Made by a program: the position numbers and the translations under genes. The notes under the pieces were generated by a model, which made no database searches, had not been told where the DNA came from, and saw only the letters and a program-made list of their open reading frames with translations. Source: Halomicrobium urmianum (lineage in GTDB: Archaea; Halobacteriota; Halobacteria; Halobacteriales; Haloarculaceae). Taken from it: DNA of 64,000 nt. Below are positions 11,471 to 27,623 of the stretch, one piece after another. The stretch is taken from contig NZ_CP084090.1 of assembly GCF_020217425.1 (NCBI RefSeq), positions 1,116,001 to 1,180,000 of the forward strand. The letters run 5' to 3'. Every line of letters starts with the position of its first letter. Position 1 is the first letter of the stretch.

Positions 11471-11575
11471 AATTAAATACCAGTTGGACATAATTTCTGT
11501 CATACACCTCTGCGTCAAGCCAGTCACGCGGAGGTGTGCTAACCACCCACGCCCTCGTGGGACGGAGACAGTCAC
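11471..11575 (+). promoter_or_regulatory. X2 promoter and double-hairpin 5' leader
   Basis: A TATA-like TTAAATA at 11473-11479 predicts a transcript start near 11503. The leader would start with hairpin 1: arms 11505-11515 and 11526-11536, 11 bp with one G-U, 10-nt loop. Hairpin 2 follows with arms 11546-11551 and 11556-11561 (CCCACG/CGTGGG, 4-nt loop), then a GGAG ribosome site 8 nt before ATG 11576. The same layout occurs before X3 and X4, with altered bases that keep the pairing. A cis-acting RNA element or protein-binding leader is the natural inference. Confidence 0.65.
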
Positions 11576-12664
11576 ATGTCCAAGGACACATCTGACGGTT
11601 TGTACGGCGCGGACAGACGTAGCGTACTCAAATACCTGGGAACGTCGGGGGCAGTCGCCGCCGGCTCGGGCCTCGGGCTGACGATGTTCAGTGGCTCCGG
11701 TGCAGCGGCGTCGGCCGACATCTCGGCGTCGAACCCGGAGGCGCTGTCCAGCGACGACGGGTCGGTCGACGAGGTGTTCATCAAGCCGTCGCTGTCGGTT
11801 TCGTGGGACGGCTTCGACGACGTCGTCGGCAAAGTCCGGATTCTGGTCGAGACCGCTACGGGCGCGTCCGACCTCGACCCGCCAGAGATCGCGGAGCTCG
11901 ACTTCAATCCCGTGTTCCGTGCCACCGGCTATGCTAACGGCACGGACAACGACAGCGAGGAGGAAACCGGACCGGGTACCAACGGCGAGTACCACATCAA
12001 CTGGTTCAGTGGCGACAAACGCATCACCCTGTTCGATTCGGACGGCGCGCCCGACTACGAGAACGCCGAGTACAACTGCGGGGCGACGATGGAGTCGTAT
12101 CTGAACGGCACGCTGATGGGGGACCCCATTGACGACGCCCAGAACGGCTTCTACGGCGCCGCCGGCAGCACCGACGCCTTCGAGGAGACCACCGACGCCG
12201 GCACCAACGACACGACGGTATATCTTCGGTATACTATCAGTCTCCACCGGCCGGACATCTCGTTCGTCACCGAAGACAACTACGCGCTGGACGCCGAGGA
12301 CGTCCGACCGTTCTCGCCGCTGGCGATGGTGGACGGTGACGGTGGTCAATATCCCGACCTCACCGCCGAGGAGTACGGTACTACGGTCACCAGCGACGTC
12401 GCCGGCGACTACGACGCGCTGTCGGCCGGCGACCTCGTGGCTGCGACGGCGGTGCCCTACGGTGTGATGCAGGACAGCACCGACCACCCGGCGCTGATGA
12501 CCAGTTACGCCAACTTCACCGTCACCGTCGACAACGAACAGGCCAGCGCCAACGCCTCCGGCGACACCGGTGCCGGCGCCGAGGTCGACGAGGACATCGA
12601 AACCATCGCCGACGACGACGACGCGGGCGGCAACGAGACCGCCGGCAACCAGACGGACGAATGA
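11576..12664 (+). CDS. X2: Tat-exported protein of unknown family, partner of G2
   Basis: A 362 aa protein. The Tat signal is DRRSVLKYLGTSG followed by a Gly/Ala/Ser hydrophobic segment. The mature part starts near SADISASNPEALS. I do not recognise a fold. Conserved landmarks shared with X1, X3 and X4 are IKPSLSVSWDGFDDVV, FRATGYANGTDND, a single Cys in YNCGATMESYL, TVYLRYTISLHRPD and DSTDHPALMTSYANF. The tail is Asp/Glu-rich with NET and NQT sequons. The paralogues are almost identical except in the signal and tail. Gene G2 starts 70 bp later and a structured leader precedes this gene. A secreted partner, assembly factor or binding protein for the neighbouring fusion enzyme is plausible from genetic linkage only. 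Confidence 0.9.
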   Translation: MSKDTSDGLYGADRRSVLKYLGTSGAVAAGSGLGLTMFSGSGAAASADISASNPEALSSDDGSVDEVFIKPSLSVSWDGFDDVVGKVRILVETATGASDLDPPEIAELDFNPVFRATGYANGTDNDSEEETGPGTNGEYHINWFSGDKRITLFDSDGAPDYENAEYNCGATMESYLNGTLMGDPIDDAQNGFYGAAGSTDAFEETTDAGTNDTTVYLRYTISLHRPDISFVTEDNYALDAEDVRPFSPLAMVDGDGGQYPDLTAEEYGTTVTSDVAGDYDALSAGDLVAATAVPYGVMQDSTDHPALMTSYANFTVTVDNEQASANASGDTGAGAEVDEDIETIADDDDAGGNETAGNQTDE

Positions 12665-12734: not shown

Positions 12735-15700
12735 ATGACGAACGACTCCACCAACGACGCGACAGACGTATCGACGTTGACCACCAACCGCCGCCGATTC
12801 TTGCAGTCGGCCGGCGTGAGTGCTGCTGGACTCGCGGCATTCGGCGGCCTCACTAGCGCCCAGCAGAGCGAGGATAACCACATCGAACTAGAGGCCGTCA
12901 CTGTCGAAACCGGCGGCGGCCGCGGCCGCTCGGAGTACGCCTGGGAGGACGGCGAGGGCGGCGTCGTACGCGGCCCACCCGAAGAAGTCTGTAACATTGC
13001 GGGTGGGGCCCACGTCTGGGTGGGGGTTTCACCGGACTCGATTGCCGACCTCACGAATCCGACGCTGAAGCTGACGGCCGGCGAGACGTACACCGTCGAG
13101 TGGACCAACACCGACGGCGAAGAGCACAACTTCGTCGTCGCCGACGCCAACGGTACCGAGCTCATCTCGTCTGAGACCGTCTCCGAGGAAGGCGCCACCC
13201 AGTCCGTCGAGTTCGAGGCCACCGAGGAGATGGCCACCTACTACTGCGGCCCCCACTCCGAATCCCAGAGCGGCGACATCGAGATCGAAGGCGGTGACGG
13301 AGGTGACGACGAGTGGATCCAGCTCTTCGACGGCGAGAGCCTTGACGGGTGGACGCCCAAATTCTCGGGCCGTCCCGTCGGCGAGAACTACAAGGACACG
13401 TTCACCGTCGAGGACGGCGTCCTCAGAGTCGATTACGACGGGTACGACGAGTGGGACAGTACGTTCGGCCACCTCTTCTACGAGGAGGAGTTCTCCCACT
13501 ACATGCTCCGGGCCGAGTACCGATTCGTCGGCGATCAGGTCTCCAGCGCCCCTGACTGGGCCTTCCGGAACAACGGGCTCATGCTCCACGGCCAGACGCC
13601 GGAGGAGATGGACGTCGATCAGGACTATCCCGACTCGATCGAGGTCCAGCTCCTGGGTCAGTCGGCGGACAGCGATACAGAGCGTGCCACCGCTAACGTC
13701 TGTACGCCGGGCACCAACATCGTCATGGACGGCTCGTTACACGAGCAACACTGTACCCGCTCGGAGTCGGACACGTACCGCGGCGACCAGTGGGTGACGG
13801 TCACGGTCGTGGTCCGCGGGAACGAAGCCATCCGTCACATCGTCGAGGACGAGGGGGTCGTGATGAGTTACTCCGAGCCGCAGCTGAACGACGGGACTCC
13901 GCTCACGGGGGGAACCATCTCCATCCAGTCGGAGAGTCACCCGACGGAGTTCCGCACGATCGAACTGAAGCCGATCGATCCCGAGGCGCCGATCGAAGCG
14001 GTCGAGCCGTCGAGCCCGCTCTGGAGCAGCTACACCAAGGACGAGCTGGCCTCGGGCCTCGAACAGCCGATGGCGATCGAGGTCACGCCGGACCACCGGG
14101 TCTTCTTCACCACGCGCGGGCCACCGGTCGACGGGGACGGAAACACCGCGACGACGGAGGTCGGCGTGGTCGATCCCGAGACCATGGAGACCACGACGGC
14201 GCTCGAACTCGACGTGTACACCTCCGGCGAAGACGGGTTACAGGGACTCACGCTCGATCCGGACTTCGAGGAGAACGGGTGGATCTATCTCTACTACTCC
14301 GCGCCACATGGAATCATCGACGAGGAGCCCCACAAGCGGTTGTCGCGGTTCACGGTCGAGGGCAACACGATCGATCCGGAGTCCGAAGTCGAGTTACTCA
14401 GGGTCCCATCGGTGGACAACCCGTGCTGTCACGTCGGCGGCGACCTCGAGTTCGGACCGGAGGGGAACCTCTGGCTCTCGGTCGGTGACGACACGAGTCC
14501 GTTCGCGACCCTCTACTCGCCGATGGACGAACGCGACGGACGGGAGCTGTACGACGCCCAGCGGTCGGCCTCGAACACCAACGATCTCAGAGGGAGCATC
14601 CTCCGGATCACGCCGACCGACGACGGCGGCTACGAGATTCCCGACGACAACATGTTCACCGGTCCGGAGTACGCCGACGCGCGCGAGAACGACCTCGTGC
14701 GCGAGGAGATCTACGTGATGGGCTGTCGCAACCCCTTCCGGATGGACATCGACGAGGACGGCGTCCTGTACTGGGGCGACTACGGACCCGACGCACGAGA
14801 GTGGGCCGACGACCAGGGTCCGCCGGGAATGGTCGAGTTCAACCGGGCCGAGGAGCCCGGCTATTACGGATGGCCGTACGTCGTCGGGCCCAACATCCCC
14901 TACGTCGACGGTGAGTTCGTCGACGCCGACAACGATCAGGGGTGGACCTTCGAGTCCTCCGGCGATCCGTTCGATCCGCAGAACCTGCGGAACACCTCGC
15001 CGAACAACACCGGCCTCACCGACTTGCCCGAACCCGAGGATCCGACGATCTGGTACCCCTACAGCTGGGACGCCCTGCTGGGTTCCCCGCCCGCCTACGC
15101 GGAGGAGTACCTGCCCGACGAACCACCGTTCCCGGACTTCGAGGGCGGCGCGCCGATGGGCCTGCCGGTCTACGAGCACCAGGACTCCCACGGCGAGAAC
15201 GCTCTGCCCGAGCGGTTCTTCGACGGGAAGCAGATCATCGGCGAGTGGGGCCAGCAGTGGATTAGGTACGTATCCTACGACGAGGAGGGCGACGTCGAGG
15301 AGATCAACGAGTTCATGCCGGACACGGACTTCCTCTCGCCGATGGACATGACCGTCGGGCCGGACGGGACGCTGTACCTCCTGGAGTGGGGCGACGGGTA
15401 CGCCGGCGATCCCATCTCCGAGAACTCCGGGATCTACCGCATCCAACGCGAGATCGGCGTCGACTTCGAGAACGTCGGAAGCGAACTGGTCACCGGACCG
15501 GGGACGACGACCACGGTGAACGCGACGGTCACGAACCCGTTCGGCTCGGCCATCGAGAACGGCGAGGTCACGCTTAGTGCACCGGACGATTCGGCGATCG
15601 AGGTGACCGCCGTCGAGGGCCAAACGTTCGACTCGCTCGGGTCGTACCAGTCCCAGTCGATGTCCTGGGACGTGACGGTCCCAGACGGGGCCAGTGACAG

Positions 15701-17318
15701 TCACGAGCTGACGGCGGCCGTCAGTTACACCGGTACGGACGGTGAGCAGAGCCGCACCACGCCCGCATTCACGATCACGGTCGGTCAGAGCATCGCCGGC
15801 GACTGGCAGTTCCAGACCGGCGACGACGACGCCTGGAGCGACCCGTCGTTCGACGACAGCGGCTGGGAGACCGTCGAGCTTCCGGATCACTGGGAGGACC
15901 ACTCGAACTACACCGACGACGAGGTCTTCGGGTGGTACCGAAAGACCGTGACCGTCCCCGAGAGCTGGGAAGGCCAGGACATCACGCTCAGAGTCGGCAA
16001 GATCGACGACGTCGATGAGACGTTCTTCAACGGTACGAAGGTCGGCCAGACAGGGACGTTCCCGGAGAACGGGTACGAAACCGCCTGGGATGCGTCCCGA
16101 GAGTACACGGTCAGCTCTGAGACCGTCGACTACGGCGGCGAGAACGTTATTGCGATCCGCGTCTACGACGGTGCTTCCGGCGGCGGGCTCTACGAGGGGC
16201 CGCTCCTGATGATCCCGTCGTCCGACGGCAGTGGCGGCGGTGACGACGGCGACCAGACGCTCCAGGACGGCCTGGAGGTGCACCTCCCGCTGGACGGCGA
16301 CACGCCGACCAACGAGATCACCGGCACCGACGCTACCATCGAAGGCGACGTGACGACCGGTCAGTCCGGTGTCCTCGGGAGCGCCTACGAGTTCGACGTC
16401 AACCAAGAGACCGGGGTCGAGATCCCTCCGTCCGAAGCGACGGCGGGCGATGGCGTGATAACCGAGCCTCTCCCGATCAACGGCGATGGGGCGACCGCGG
16501 CCGCGTGGATCAACTACACCGACCACGAGCAGTGGGGCCGCGCCCCGTTCCAGATCGGCGGCTCTCTCGAGGACGCGCCCGCAGACGGCTGGAACGTCCA
16601 GTTCGAGAGTAACACGGATACGATTCGGCCGGAGCTCTGGGACGGCGGTACTCCCAGCAATGGATCCGGTGGGACGCCCATCCCGGTCGAGTCGGGAACG
16701 TGGTACTTCGTCGTGGTAGTCGTCGAGGGTGGGACCTCTAGGCTCCACGTCTTCGACCAGGAGGGCGAACTCGACGCCTCGCCACAGGTCTGGACCGGCG
16801 GGTCGCGCAGTCAGGCCGAGAGCGCGCCCCTCTGCATCGGCGTCGGCCAGGGCTACGACATGGCAGGCCGCGTCGACGACGTCTGGGCGCACTCCCGCGC
16901 CCTCTCCGCGGACAAAGTCAGCGAGCTCCACTCGCTGTCGCTCGAGGGAAGCGGTTCGAGGGCACTCGACCCGTCGACGACGATCCGACTCGACGGCCAG
17001 ATCAGCAGTTGGGTGGGACAGGCCCCGTCGAGCATCGACGGGACCTCGAATCCCACGCTCACGCTACAGGCCGGTGAAACCTACACGGTCGAGTGGACGA
17101 ACGTCGACGGGATCGGACACAACTTCGAGATCCTCGATCACGACCAACCCGAGTACTCCGGCCACATTGTCAACGACATCTCGACGTCCCTCATGTCCAA
17201 TCAAGGCGAAACCCAGACCGTCGAGTTCACGGCCACCGAGGAGATGGCTCGATACCAGTGCCGTCCGCACCGGTCGAGTATGCACGGCGACATCGAGGTG
17301 ATCGGAAGCAGTCAGTAA
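12735..17318 (+). CDS. G2: Tat-exported cupredoxin - DUF1080 - sugar dehydrogenase - jelly roll - LamG - cupredoxin fusion protein
   Basis: A 1527 aa protein. ATG 12735 is chosen because it places the Tat motif NRRRFLQ at 18-24; the longer upstream frame overlaps X2. Order: cupredoxin (His131, Cys171, His174, Gln178 instead of Met); DUF1080/3-keto-disaccharide hydrolase (about 192-418, from WIQLFDGESLDGW); sorbosone/glucose-dehydrogenase propeller (about 429-903) with Cys564-Cys565-His566; a NEW3-like domain (910-1016); a galactose-binding jelly roll of the beta-galactosidase type (1019-1162); a LamG-like domain (1176-1402); and a second cupredoxin (1412-1527) with His1462, Cys1509, His1512 and Met1516. 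The two copper domains bracket the enzyme modules. No clear ribosome site precedes the start. Substrate is unknown; a surface sugar-oxidising and keto-glycoside-cleaving enzyme is inferred. Confidence 0.87.
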   Translation: MTNDSTNDATDVSTLTTNRRRFLQSAGVSAAGLAAFGGLTSAQQSEDNHIELEAVTVETGGGRGRSEYAWEDGEGGVVRGPPEEVCNIAGGAHVWVGVSPDSIADLTNPTLKLTAGETYTVEWTNTDGEEHNFVVADANGTELISSETVSEEGATQSVEFEATEEMATYYCGPHSESQSGDIEIEGGDGGDDEWIQLFDGESLDGWTPKFSGRPVGENYKDTFTVEDGVLRVDYDGYDEWDSTFGHLFYEEEFSHYMLRAEYRFVGDQVSSAPDWAFRNNGLMLHGQTPEEMDVDQDYPDSIEVQLLGQSADSDTERATANVCTPGTNIVMDGSLHEQHCTRSESDTYRGDQWVTVTVVVRGNEAIRHIVEDEGVVMSYSEPQLNDGTPLTGGTISIQSESHPTEFRTIELKPIDPEAPIEAVEPSSPLWSSYTKDELASGLEQPMAIEVTPDHRVFFTTRGPPVDGDGNTATTEVGVVDPETMETTTALELDVYTSGEDGLQGLTLDPDFEENGWIYLYYSAPHGIIDEEPHKRLSRFTVEGNTIDPESEVELLRVPSVDNPCCHVGGDLEFGPEGNLWLSVGDDTSPFATLYSPMDERDGRELYDAQRSASNTNDLRGSILRITPTDDGGYEIPDDNMFTGPEYADARENDLVREEIYVMGCRNPFRMDIDEDGVLYWGDYGPDAREWADDQGPPGMVEFNRAEEPGYYGWPYVVGPNIPYVDGEFVDADNDQGWTFESSGDPFDPQNLRNTSPNNTGLTDLPEPEDPTIWYPYSWDALLGSPPAYAEEYLPDEPPFPDFEGGAPMGLPVYEHQDSHGENALPERFFDGKQIIGEWGQQWIRYVSYDEEGDVEEINEFMPDTDFLSPMDMTVGPDGTLYLLEWGDGYAGDPISENSGIYRIQREIGVDFENVGSELVTGPGTTTTVNATVTNPFGSAIENGEVTLSAPDDSAIEVTAVEGQTFDSLGSYQSQSMSWDVTVPDGASDSHELTAAVSYTGTDGEQSRTTPAFTITVGQSIAGDWQFQTGDDDAWSDPSFDDSGWETVELPDHWEDHSNYTDDEVFGWYRKTVTVPESWEGQDITLRVGKIDDVDETFFNGTKVGQTGTFPENGYETAWDASREYTVSSETVDYGGENVIAIRVYDGASGGGLYEGPLLMIPSSDGSGGGDDGDQTLQDGLEVHLPLDGDTPTNEITGTDATIEGDVTTGQSGVLGSAYEFDVNQETGVEIPPSEATAGDGVITEPLPINGDGATAAAWINYTDHEQWGRAPFQIGGSLEDAPADGWNVQFESNTDTIRPELWDGGTPSNGSGGTPIPVESGTWYFVVVVVEGGTSRLHVFDQEGELDASPQVWTGGSRSQAESAPLCIGVGQGYDMAGRVDDVWAHSRALSADKVSELHSLSLEGSGSRALDPSTTIRLDGQISSWVGQAPSSIDGTSNPTLTLQAGETYTVEWTNVDGIGHNFEILDHDQPEYSGHIVNDISTSLMSNQGETQTVEFTATEEMARYQCRPHRSSMHGDIEVIGSSQ

Positions 17319-19230: not shown

Positions 19231-19332
19231 CTAAATAACACCAGTTCGTTCTTATCACCGTACACTTCCGCGCCAGATAGACGCGTGAAGTTGTGCCAAT
19301 AACCCACGTCATCGTGGGGCGGAGATATCCAC
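19231..19332 (+). promoter_or_regulatory. X3 promoter and double-hairpin 5' leader
   Basis: TATA-like TAAATAA at 19232-19238 predicts a start near 19261. Hairpin 1 spans 19263-19293 (9 pairs with a bulge). Hairpin 2 has arms 19303-19308 and 19313-19318 (CCCACG/CGTGGG) with a TCAT loop. GGAG at 19321 lies 8 nt before ATG 19333. The distance from hairpin 1 to the ATG is 70 nt, against 71 and 69 in the X2 and X4 leaders. Confidence 0.65.
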
Positions 19333-20499
19333 ATGTCCAAGGACACATCTGACGGTCTGTACGACGCGGACAGACGTAGCGTACTCAAATACCTGGGAAC
19401 GTCGGGGGTAGTCGCTGCCGGCTCTGGGCTCGGGCTGACGATGTTCAGCGGCTCGGGCGCGGCCGCGTCGGCGGACATCTCGGCGTCGAACCCGGAAGCG
19501 CTGTCGAGCGACGACGGCACGGTCGACGAGGTGTTCATCAAGCCGTCGCTGTCGGTTTCGTGGGACGGCTTCGACGACGTCGTCGGCAAAGTCCGCATCC
19601 TGGTCGAGGCCGCCACCGGCGCGTCCGATCTGGACCCGCCCGAAATCGCCGACCTCGACTTCATGCCGGTGTTCCGCGCCACGGGTTACGCCAACGGGAC
19701 GGACAACGACAGCGAAGAGGAGACGGGCCCGGGCACCAGCGGCCAGTACCAGATCAACTGGTTCGACGGCGACCGCCGTATCACCCTGTTCGACGAGGAC
19801 GGCGCGCCCGACTACGAGAACGCCGGGTACAACTGCGGCGCGACGATGGAGTCGTACCTCAGCGGCACGCTCATGGGCGACCCCATCGACGGCGCCCAGA
19901 ACGGCTTCTACGGCGCCGCCGGCAGCACCGACGCCTTCGAGGAGACCACCGACGCCGGTACCAACGACACGACGGTATATCTTCGGTACACGATCAGTCT
20001 CCACCGGCCGGACATCTCGTTCGTCACCGAGGACAACTACGCGCTGGACGCCGAGGACGTCCGCCCGTTCTCGCCGCTGGCGATGGTGGACGGTGACGGC
20101 GGCCAGTATCCCGACCTCACCGCCGAGGAGTACGGTACTACGGTCACCAGCGACGACGCCGACGACTACGACGCGCTGTCGGCCGGCGACCTCGTCCATG
20201 CCACGGCCGTCCCCTACGGCGTCATGCAGGACAGCACCGACCACCCGGCGCTGATGACCAGCTACGCCAACTTCACCGTCACCGTCGACAACGAACAGGC
20301 CAGCGCCAACGCCTCCGGCGACACCGGCGCCGGTGCCGAGGTCGACGAAGACGTCGAAACCATCGCCGACGGCGACAACAGCTCCGACGAGGCCGACGAC
20401 GCTCCGGCCGACGTCGGCAACGGCACCGTCGGCAACGGCACCGTCGGCAACGGCACCGCCGACGACGGGACCAGCGGTAACGAGACGAATGACACCTGA
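19333..20499 (+). CDS. X3: Tat-exported protein of unknown family, partner of G3
   Basis: A 388 aa protein, the longest X member. The Tat signal (DRRSVLKYLGTSG) and the whole mature body match X2 almost residue for residue, including the single Cys in YNCGATMESYL. The difference is the tail: a 15-bp unit repeated three times (20413-20457) encodes VGNGT repeats, giving a run of sequons NSS, NGT, NGT, NGT, NET, NDT. In haloarchaea such Asn residues can be glycosylated at the surface. The start is supported by GGAG 8 nt upstream. G3 follows after 65 bp with its own strong ribosome site. Function is unknown. Confidence 0.9.
   Translation: MSKDTSDGLYDADRRSVLKYLGTSGVVAAGSGLGLTMFSGSGAAASADISASNPEALSSDDGTVDEVFIKPSLSVSWDGFDDVVGKVRILVEAATGASDLDPPEIADLDFMPVFRATGYANGTDNDSEEETGPGTSGQYQINWFDGDRRITLFDEDGAPDYENAGYNCGATMESYLSGTLMGDPIDGAQNGFYGAAGSTDAFEETTDAGTNDTTVYLRYTISLHRPDISFVTEDNYALDAEDVRPFSPLAMVDGDGGQYPDLTAEEYGTTVTSDDADDYDALSAGDLVHATAVPYGVMQDSTDHPALMTSYANFTVTVDNEQASANASGDTGAGAEVDEDVETIADGDNSSDEADDAPADVGNGTVGNGTVGNGTADDGTSGNETNDT
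20413..20457 (+). repeat. Three tandem 15-bp units encoding VGNGT sequons
   Basis: The unit GTCGGCAACGGCACC is repeated at 20413-20427, 20428-20442 and 20443-20457 without a mismatch. It lengthens the glycosylation-sequon tail of X3 in frame, so slippage could vary the number of glycan sites. Confidence 0.9.
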
Positions 20500-26429: not shown

Positions 26430-26537
26430 CGAAAACTTATTGTTCTACGTGATATTAGTTGTCACATACACGTTCGCGCTTGGGGAGACGCGGAGGTGTG
26501 CCAGTGAGACACCCGTACCGGGTGGAGAGAGGGACCA
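26430..26537 (+). promoter_or_regulatory. X4 promoter and double-hairpin 5' leader
   Basis: Hairpin 1 has arms 26469-26478 and 26489-26498 (9 of 10 paired, one G-G mismatch); its 3' arm CGCGGAGGTG equals that of the X2 leader. Hairpin 2 (26510-26524) has CACCCG/CGGGTG in place of CCCACG/CGTGGG, so the sequence changed while pairing was kept. An AT-rich ACTTATTG near 26435 is the best TATA candidate for a start at hairpin 1; TTAATTA at 26421 is an alternative. Confidence 0.55.
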
Positions 26538-27623
26538 ATGTCAAATTTCACGTTCGACAACATCAACGACGCAGATCGACGCAGTGTGCTGAAAATGCTC
26601 GGTGCAGGCGGTGCCGCAGCCGCCGGTGGCGGGTTCGGCCTGACGGCCTTGACCGGATCGGGAGCAGCCGCCACCACCGATATCTCGGCCTCGAACCCCG
26701 AGGCACTCACGAGCGACGACGGCTCGGTCGACGAGGTGTTCGTCAAGCCGTCACTGTCGGTCTCCTGGGACGGCTTCGACGACGTCGTCGGCAAAGTCCG
26801 CATTCTGGTCGAAGCGGCGACCGGCGATGCCGACCTCAAGACGTCCGAAGTCGAGAGCCTCGACTACACGCCCGTCTTCAGGGCGACGGGCTACGCCAAC
26901 GGGACGGACAACGACAGCGAAGAGGAGACGGGCCCGGGCACCAACGGCCAGTACCAGATCAACTGGTTCGAGGGTGACAAACGCATCACCCTGTTCGATT
27001 CGGAGGGTGCACCCGACTACGAGAGCGCCGGGTACAACTGCGGCGCGACGATGGAGTCGTACCTCAGCGGCACGCTCATGGGCGATCCGATCGACGACGC
27101 CCAGAACGGCTTCTACGGGGCTGCTGGTACCACCGACGCCTTCGAGGAGGCCACCGATCAGGAGGCCACCGACACGACGGTGTACCTGCGGTATACCATC
27201 AGCCTCCACCGGCCGGACATCTCGTTCGTCACCGAGGACAACTACGCGCTGGACGCCGAGGACGTCCGCCCGTTCTCGCCGCTGGCGATGGCCGACGGCG
27301 ACGGCGGCCAGTATCCCGACCTCACCGCCGAGGAGTACGGTACTACGGTCACCAGCGACGTCGCCGGCGACTACGACGCGCTGTCGGCCGGCGACCTCGT
27401 CCATGCCACGGCAGTGCCCTACGGTGTGATGCAGGACAGCACCGACCACCCGGCGCTGATGACCAGCTACGCCAACTTCACCGTCACCGTCGACAACGAA
27501 CAGGCCAGCGCCAACGCCTCCGGCGACACCGGCGCCGGTGCCGAGGTCGACGAGGACGTCGGAACCCTCACCGACGGCGACGCAGGCGGCAACGAGACCG
27601 CCGGCAACGAGACGGACGAATGA
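26538..27623 (+). CDS. X4: Tat-exported protein of unknown family, partner of G4
   Basis: A 361 aa protein. It is the most divergent member at the N-terminus (MSNFTFDNINDADRRSVLKML) and in the middle (DADLKTSEVESLDY), but from the single-Cys region YNCGATMESYL onward it is close to identical with X1-X3. The Tat signal has DRRSVLKML. The tail is short with two NET sequons. G4 follows after 70 bp; the spacer resembles that between X2 and G2. The divergent front and near-identical back suggest gene conversion between copies. Function is unknown. Confidence 0.9.
   Translation: MSNFTFDNINDADRRSVLKMLGAGGAAAAGGGFGLTALTGSGAAATTDISASNPEALTSDDGSVDEVFVKPSLSVSWDGFDDVVGKVRILVEAATGDADLKTSEVESLDYTPVFRATGYANGTDNDSEEETGPGTNGQYQINWFEGDKRITLFDSEGAPDYESAGYNCGATMESYLSGTLMGDPIDDAQNGFYGAAGTTDAFEEATDQEATDTTVYLRYTISLHRPDISFVTEDNYALDAEDVRPFSPLAMADGDGGQYPDLTAEEYGTTVTSDVAGDYDALSAGDLVHATAVPYGVMQDSTDHPALMTSYANFTVTVDNEQASANASGDTGAGAEVDEDVGTLTDGDAGGNETAGNETDE

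Follow-up and report, generated by a model that had tools for sequence, protein, structure and literature searches.

Introduction

Stabilizing hairpins at the 5' terminus of the mRNA are known from bacteria, with E. coli ompA as the type, and the cis-regulatory leader families collected in Rfam have in common with the leaders described here a conserved structure in the 5' leader. Protein-coding transcripts of Haloferax volcanii mostly lack a leader (72% of them), and a leader with structure counts as atypical (PMC4983044). The leaderless majority agrees with the premise of a preliminary description of this DNA that most haloarchaeal genes are leaderless. The closest described system is the H. 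volcanii 5'-UTR called 'hp', a single stem-loop of -7.4 kcal/mol at one gene, which lowers translation in a growth-phase-dependent manner; stabilizing the stem-loop abolished translation and destabilizing it raised translation (Brenneis and Soppa 2009, PMC2636863).

The window examined here is a stretch of 64,000 nt from the 4.25 Mb genome of Halomicrobium urmianum, in which genes that we call X2, X3, and X4 are each preceded by a leader with two hairpins. These leaders are a new family of a known general kind, and what makes them unusual is that a structured leader counts as atypical among haloarchaea. Rfam returns no match at the gathering threshold, and none at E ≤ 5 when given the leader alone. 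Like 'hp', the X leaders place a stem-loop in a haloarchaeal mRNA leader, but they differ in having two hairpins with about -30 kcal/mol in total, in showing compensatory changes, and in forming a multi-copy family. With the ompA type they share a stable hairpin followed by an unpaired ribosome-binding region, and an exported protein as the product; the hairpin would lie at the 5' end or close to it, as judged from a predicted transcript start, and the leaders are archaeal. A leader family with covariation support, joined to a structured-leader trait across a whole superfamily, would be a concrete, testable exception, and it would supply a naturally matched set of leaders with which to study translation and stabilization of leadered, partly Shine-Dalgarno-less archaeal mRNAs.

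Architecture of the leaders

X2 (11576..12664, + strand, as are all window features below) encodes a predicted Tat-exported protein of 362 aa without a Pfam domain. It is followed after 70 nt by Y2 (12735..17318), encoding a giant Tat-exported protein, and the two probably form one operon. X3 (19333..20499, 388 aa) and X4 (26538..27623, 361 aa) likewise encode Tat-exported proteins and are followed by Y3 from 20565 after 65 nt and by Y4 from 27694 after 70 nt. With gaps of 65-94 nt, we infer that X shares an operon with Y.

All three leaders lie where the preliminary description had placed them, and each reads in the order TATA-like box, hairpin 1, hairpin 2, GGAG, and ATG, with about 70-75 nt from the predicted start to the ATG. 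Hairpin 1, of 11-13 pairs, lies near the predicted transcript start, and hairpin 2 has 6 bp. Boxes were assigned from the sequence and from spacing compared across copies, and hairpins from sequence and folding. For X2, the TATA-like box TTAAATA is at 11473..11479 and the transcript start is predicted at about 11502-11504. Hairpin 1 pairs 11503-11515 with 11526-11538 around a loop of 10 nt, in 13 consecutive pairs of which two are G.U; hairpin 2 is CCCACG CCCT CGTGGG (11546-11551/11556-11561); and a Shine-Dalgarno-like GGAG (11564..11567) stands 8 nt 5' of the ATG at 11576. The X3 leader has TAAATA at 19232..19237, hairpin 1 at 19261..19295 with two one-base bulges in its 3' arm, hairpin 2 as CCCACG TCAT CGTGGG (19303-19308/19313-19318), GGAG at 19321-19324, and the ATG at 19333. 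In X4, hairpin 1 (26467..26500) contains one G-G mismatch, hairpin 2 is CACCCG TAC CGGGTG (26510-26515/26519-26524), GGAG is at 26524-26527, and the ATG is at 26538.

These assignments bear out the earlier reading of the second stem as CCCACG/CGTGGG twice and CACCCG/CGGGTG once, in a 6-bp hairpin followed by GGAG and the ATG. A first hairpin of 9-11 bp had also been described; the hairpin is there, but for X2 the size was set slightly low, its stem 1 having 13 pairs with the two G.U pairs counted. The claim that the first stem varies and yet stays paired holds for the pairing, with the addition of the X3 bulges and the X4 mismatch, which had gone unmentioned.

Hairpin 1 begins about 71-76 nt 5' of the ATG in X2-X4, where the transcript start is predicted from the TATA position. 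The box center is 95-103 nt 5' of the ATG in 8 of the 9 array leaders compared, taking second-best scoring boxes for two of them (C23 and C25, described below) and an ambiguous one for X4, and this spacing agrees with a leader of about 70-75 nt. A stable stem-loop is present between the predicted transcript start and the start codon, a feature of the hp-type haloarchaeal 5'-UTR. The leaders fold at about -30 kcal/mol, with z scores of about -3.0, -3.1, and -2.1 against dinucleotide shuffles for X2, X3, and X4, and 0, 1, and 4 of 200 shuffles, respectively, fold as well. The region 3' of hairpin 2, the last 13-14 nt or so with GGAG and the AUG, is mostly unpaired in all three.

The reading toward which we lean is that the feature would be the structured 5' untranslated leader of each X-Y operon mRNA, acting in cis and free of ligand on ribosome loading and/or 5'-end protection. 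Transcription is predicted to start about 26 nt 3' of the TATA box, which would put hairpin 1 no more than a few bases from the mRNA 5' end, and hairpin 2 would then lie between it and the mostly unpaired ribosome-binding region with the AUG. The leader may in this way tune the amount of X, and perhaps that of Y, by setting ribosome loading and/or by guarding the 5' end against 5'-to-3' decay. We infer an effect on expression, and a regulatory role is plausible.

Copies within and beyond the genome

A covariance model of five leaders, X0 to X4 (R1), finds six leader copies in the genome itself, with E from 2.5 × 10−26 to 2.6 × 10−7. X0 and X1 are two further intact copies with the same leader just upstream of the window, the 3' end of X1 reaching into it. 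The sixth leader (L034:2374-2447, E = 2.6 × 10−7) is also just upstream, before a degenerate X of 78 codons, X-1; the giant Y gene of that unit comes next. That X-1 keeps a paired leader in front of its Y hints, as a weak argument, that the leader serves the whole operon mRNA, beyond X alone.

One other match in the genome falls below E = 0.001 (L041), within coding sequence and lacking the structure. It and the weak covariance matches L047-L050 and L147-L150 were set aside as chance, most being in open coding frames and none before an X gene.

The presence of the element in all six copies would allow their co-regulation, and between the two stems part of the linker is conserved (GCCAAUAA-like), as might be expected if an RNA-binding protein or small RNA acting in trans recognized the leader. 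However, the linker is not kept in X0 or X-1, and in the covariance search the element turns up at none of this genome's other genes; we regard such a partner as unlikely.

A protein search of the order, covering 392 genomes, turned up an orthologous X array with 67-83% identity in a genome of another family, G329, where it lies on small contigs (L072-L076) with assembly breaks at the repeats. Its C23 leader scores E = 1.0 × 10−19 against R1, which had not seen it, and the match of its C25 leader to R1 is weak. In a second model that includes both (R2), the E-values are 6.5 × 10−23 for C23 and 3.1 × 10−11 for C25, and these are not independent because both leaders are in the model. R2 gave no convincing leader match in the other genomes among the 392 sampled, which leaves the recognizable leader sequence family in 2 of the 392. 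The C23 leader looks like the ortholog of the X3 leader, with both X3 bulge positions kept (read by eye, they are common to the ortholog on L076) and stem 2 again CCCACG/CGTGGG with a different loop. The C25 copy has part of stem 1 broken. The C45 copies in G329 are preceded by a third leader type, different in sequence and again with a hairpin that begins close to the predicted 5' end. No X match occurs in the remaining genomes of the window's genus, and this, together with the array in another family, suggests horizontal transfer of the X cluster.

The copies differ in other respects. GGAG is missing in X0 and in several homologs, so control at the ribosome site is not uniform. Stem 2 has only 4 bp in X0 and is weak in X-1. 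Loops and linkers differ between copies in both length and sequence, and this variation makes a metabolite-binding riboswitch or other ligand-sensing aptamer highly improbable, even though a structured leader stands before operons whose Y proteins resemble carbohydrate-oxidizing and -hydrolyzing enzymes. The leader copies compared have no conserved loop, junction, or unpaired core that could form a binding pocket, Rfam offers no counterpart, and the distant homologs discussed below have no obvious common leader sequence.

Two smaller candidates were rejected. A mini-ORF in the X2 leader (GTG TGC TAA) has no conserved counterpart in the other copies, and a Shine-Dalgarno-like GGAGGTG sequestered in the 3' arm of stem 1 is lost as a motif in X1 and X3, with the pairing kept.

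Covariation and support for selection as RNA

The eight leaders, six from the genome itself and two from G329, were placed in one alignment, A10. In this alignment, which was fitted to the structure and so is biased towards it, 81.6% of cells are paired against 76.2% in shuffled versions and the covariation score is 0.278 against 0.184, with none of 500 shuffles reaching either value or the observed number of pair types. Both sides have changed in six pairs, a number that 10 of the 500 shuffles reach, and slid-structure controls on A10 are 33-58% paired. The original five-row alignment is weaker, 27 of 500 shuffles reaching its covariation score. By hand alignment, the stem-1 pair 12/42 is C-G, U-A, or G-C depending on the copy, and pair 8/46 is A-U and G-C. 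When whole 3' arms of stem 1, and of that stem only, were swapped among copies, 2.8% of 40,320 swaps paired as well, a modest result. As judged from these alignments, covariation support is good, though it comes from few sequences. The preliminary description had proposed a covariance-model search of haloarchaeal genomes and had set covariation in additional homologs as its test; the search gained the orthologous array in a second family, and with those leaders included the covariation score exceeds all shuffles.

Mean pairwise identity of the X0-X4 leaders is 69% against 58% shuffled by a gap-tolerant measure, and the 80 nt 5' of the leader, at 60% against 58%, are at background. The conserved unit thus starts close to where transcription is predicted to begin, as one would expect of an RNA. 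The copies are paralogues of one array and GC-rich sequence folds easily by chance, which is the case for likeness left over from tandem duplication and without function. But the leaders beat dinucleotide shuffles, the upstream sequence has diverged to background where the leader has not, the changes compensate, and the trait recurs in distant homologs beyond controls. Absence of function is, in our estimate, very unlikely.

An inverted repeat has the same appearance in DNA as in RNA, and stem 1 covers roughly +1 to +36 relative to the predicted start, a place where a repressor could act; the repeats might then be DNA operators that lie just 3' of the promoter and bind a dimeric transcription regulator. 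Operator DNA would fold equally on both strands. Folding of the X-family leaders is stronger in the sense than in the antisense direction (mean z -1.42 vs -1.02, p = 0.024; for the structured subset, p = 0.009), and control genes have no such bias (p = 0.50), which favors RNA. Stem 1 also contains more G-U pairs than A-C mismatches (10 vs 4 cells), the spacer between the arms ranges from 9 to about 17 nt where operators would have fixed half-site spacing, and the element consists of two hairpins. We hold the operator alternative to be quite unlikely.

Covariation and strand bias together support selection on the leader structure at the level of RNA, and the reality of the RNA structure is well supported. 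Of the earlier proposal of a cis-regulatory RNA, it is the RNA structure that covariation and strand bias uphold, in a sequence family found in 2 of 392 genomes; "cis-regulatory" keeps the standing of a proposal.

Leaders of distant homologs

X homologs occur in many haloarchaeal genera, most at 30-45% identity, and in eight named genomes, including Haloarcula amylovorans, Haloferax marinum, Haloferax profundi, Halorubellus salinus, and Halorussus ruber. Their leaders have no obvious sequence in common with the array leaders, and many have one or two stable hairpins. Over positions -75..-1, 46 non-redundant X-family leaders have a mean folding z of -1.31, with 30% below -2, compared to a mean of -0.09 and 6% for 130 control genes with intergenic upstream regions, and -0.45 and 10% for 30 other genes with Tat signals. 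The X-superfamily leaders are thus more structured than controls (p = 2 × 10−7, and still 3 × 10−5 with the array genes left out) and than other Tat genes (p = 0.002), p-values that are optimistic because the homologs are not independent and because start codons and control genes were chosen by simple rules. Enrichment is weaker in the -45..-1 window alone, where the comparison with other Tat genes is not significant (p = 0.11), and a large part of the distant homologs lack significant structure. In three homologs from the genus Haloferax, the stem is perfect and one pair runs G-C, G-U, A-U.

Shape, not sequence, seems to be what is kept across the superfamily leaders. We put forward, tentatively and with more doubt than confidence, that the whole of this superfamily of Tat-exported surface or secreted proteins of Halobacteria may depend for its expression on leadered mRNAs with hairpins that keep their shape and not their sequence, as a dedicated class of post-transcriptional control in a clade supposed to be without structured leaders. 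One X homolog (L109:1501-2502) is on a contig labeled Candidatus Nanosalina (Nanohaloarchaeota), and is either a transfer or a mis-binned haloarchaeal contig.

The X proteins and the tandem array

Neither Pfam nor NCBIfam assigns the X family (alignment A4, 22 homologs, e.g. 26538-27623) to a family beyond a weak Tat signal, which Pfam gives in some members. A structure model from three sequences was useless (pLDDT 27). A model from eleven was weak (pLDDT 51, pTM 0.58), with no significant match to it in the PDB (best E = 2.5 × 10−3). Viral contigs contain no X relative, and plasmids contain no relative of a Haloferax X homolog.

The six X-Y units, one with its X degenerate, form a tandem array that extends over window positions 447-32943 and L034:2374-17353. 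The Y proteins are giant Tat-exported fusions; the two whose domains were examined, at 447 and 20565, combine in different ways cupredoxin, glucose/sorbosone dehydrogenase, 3-keto-disaccharide hydrolase, malectin, and CBM9-like domains. X0 (L034:8605-9693) and X3 (19333-20499) are almost identical in protein over most of their length and have strongly different leaders, which suggests gene conversion between them in the coding part, sparing the leader.
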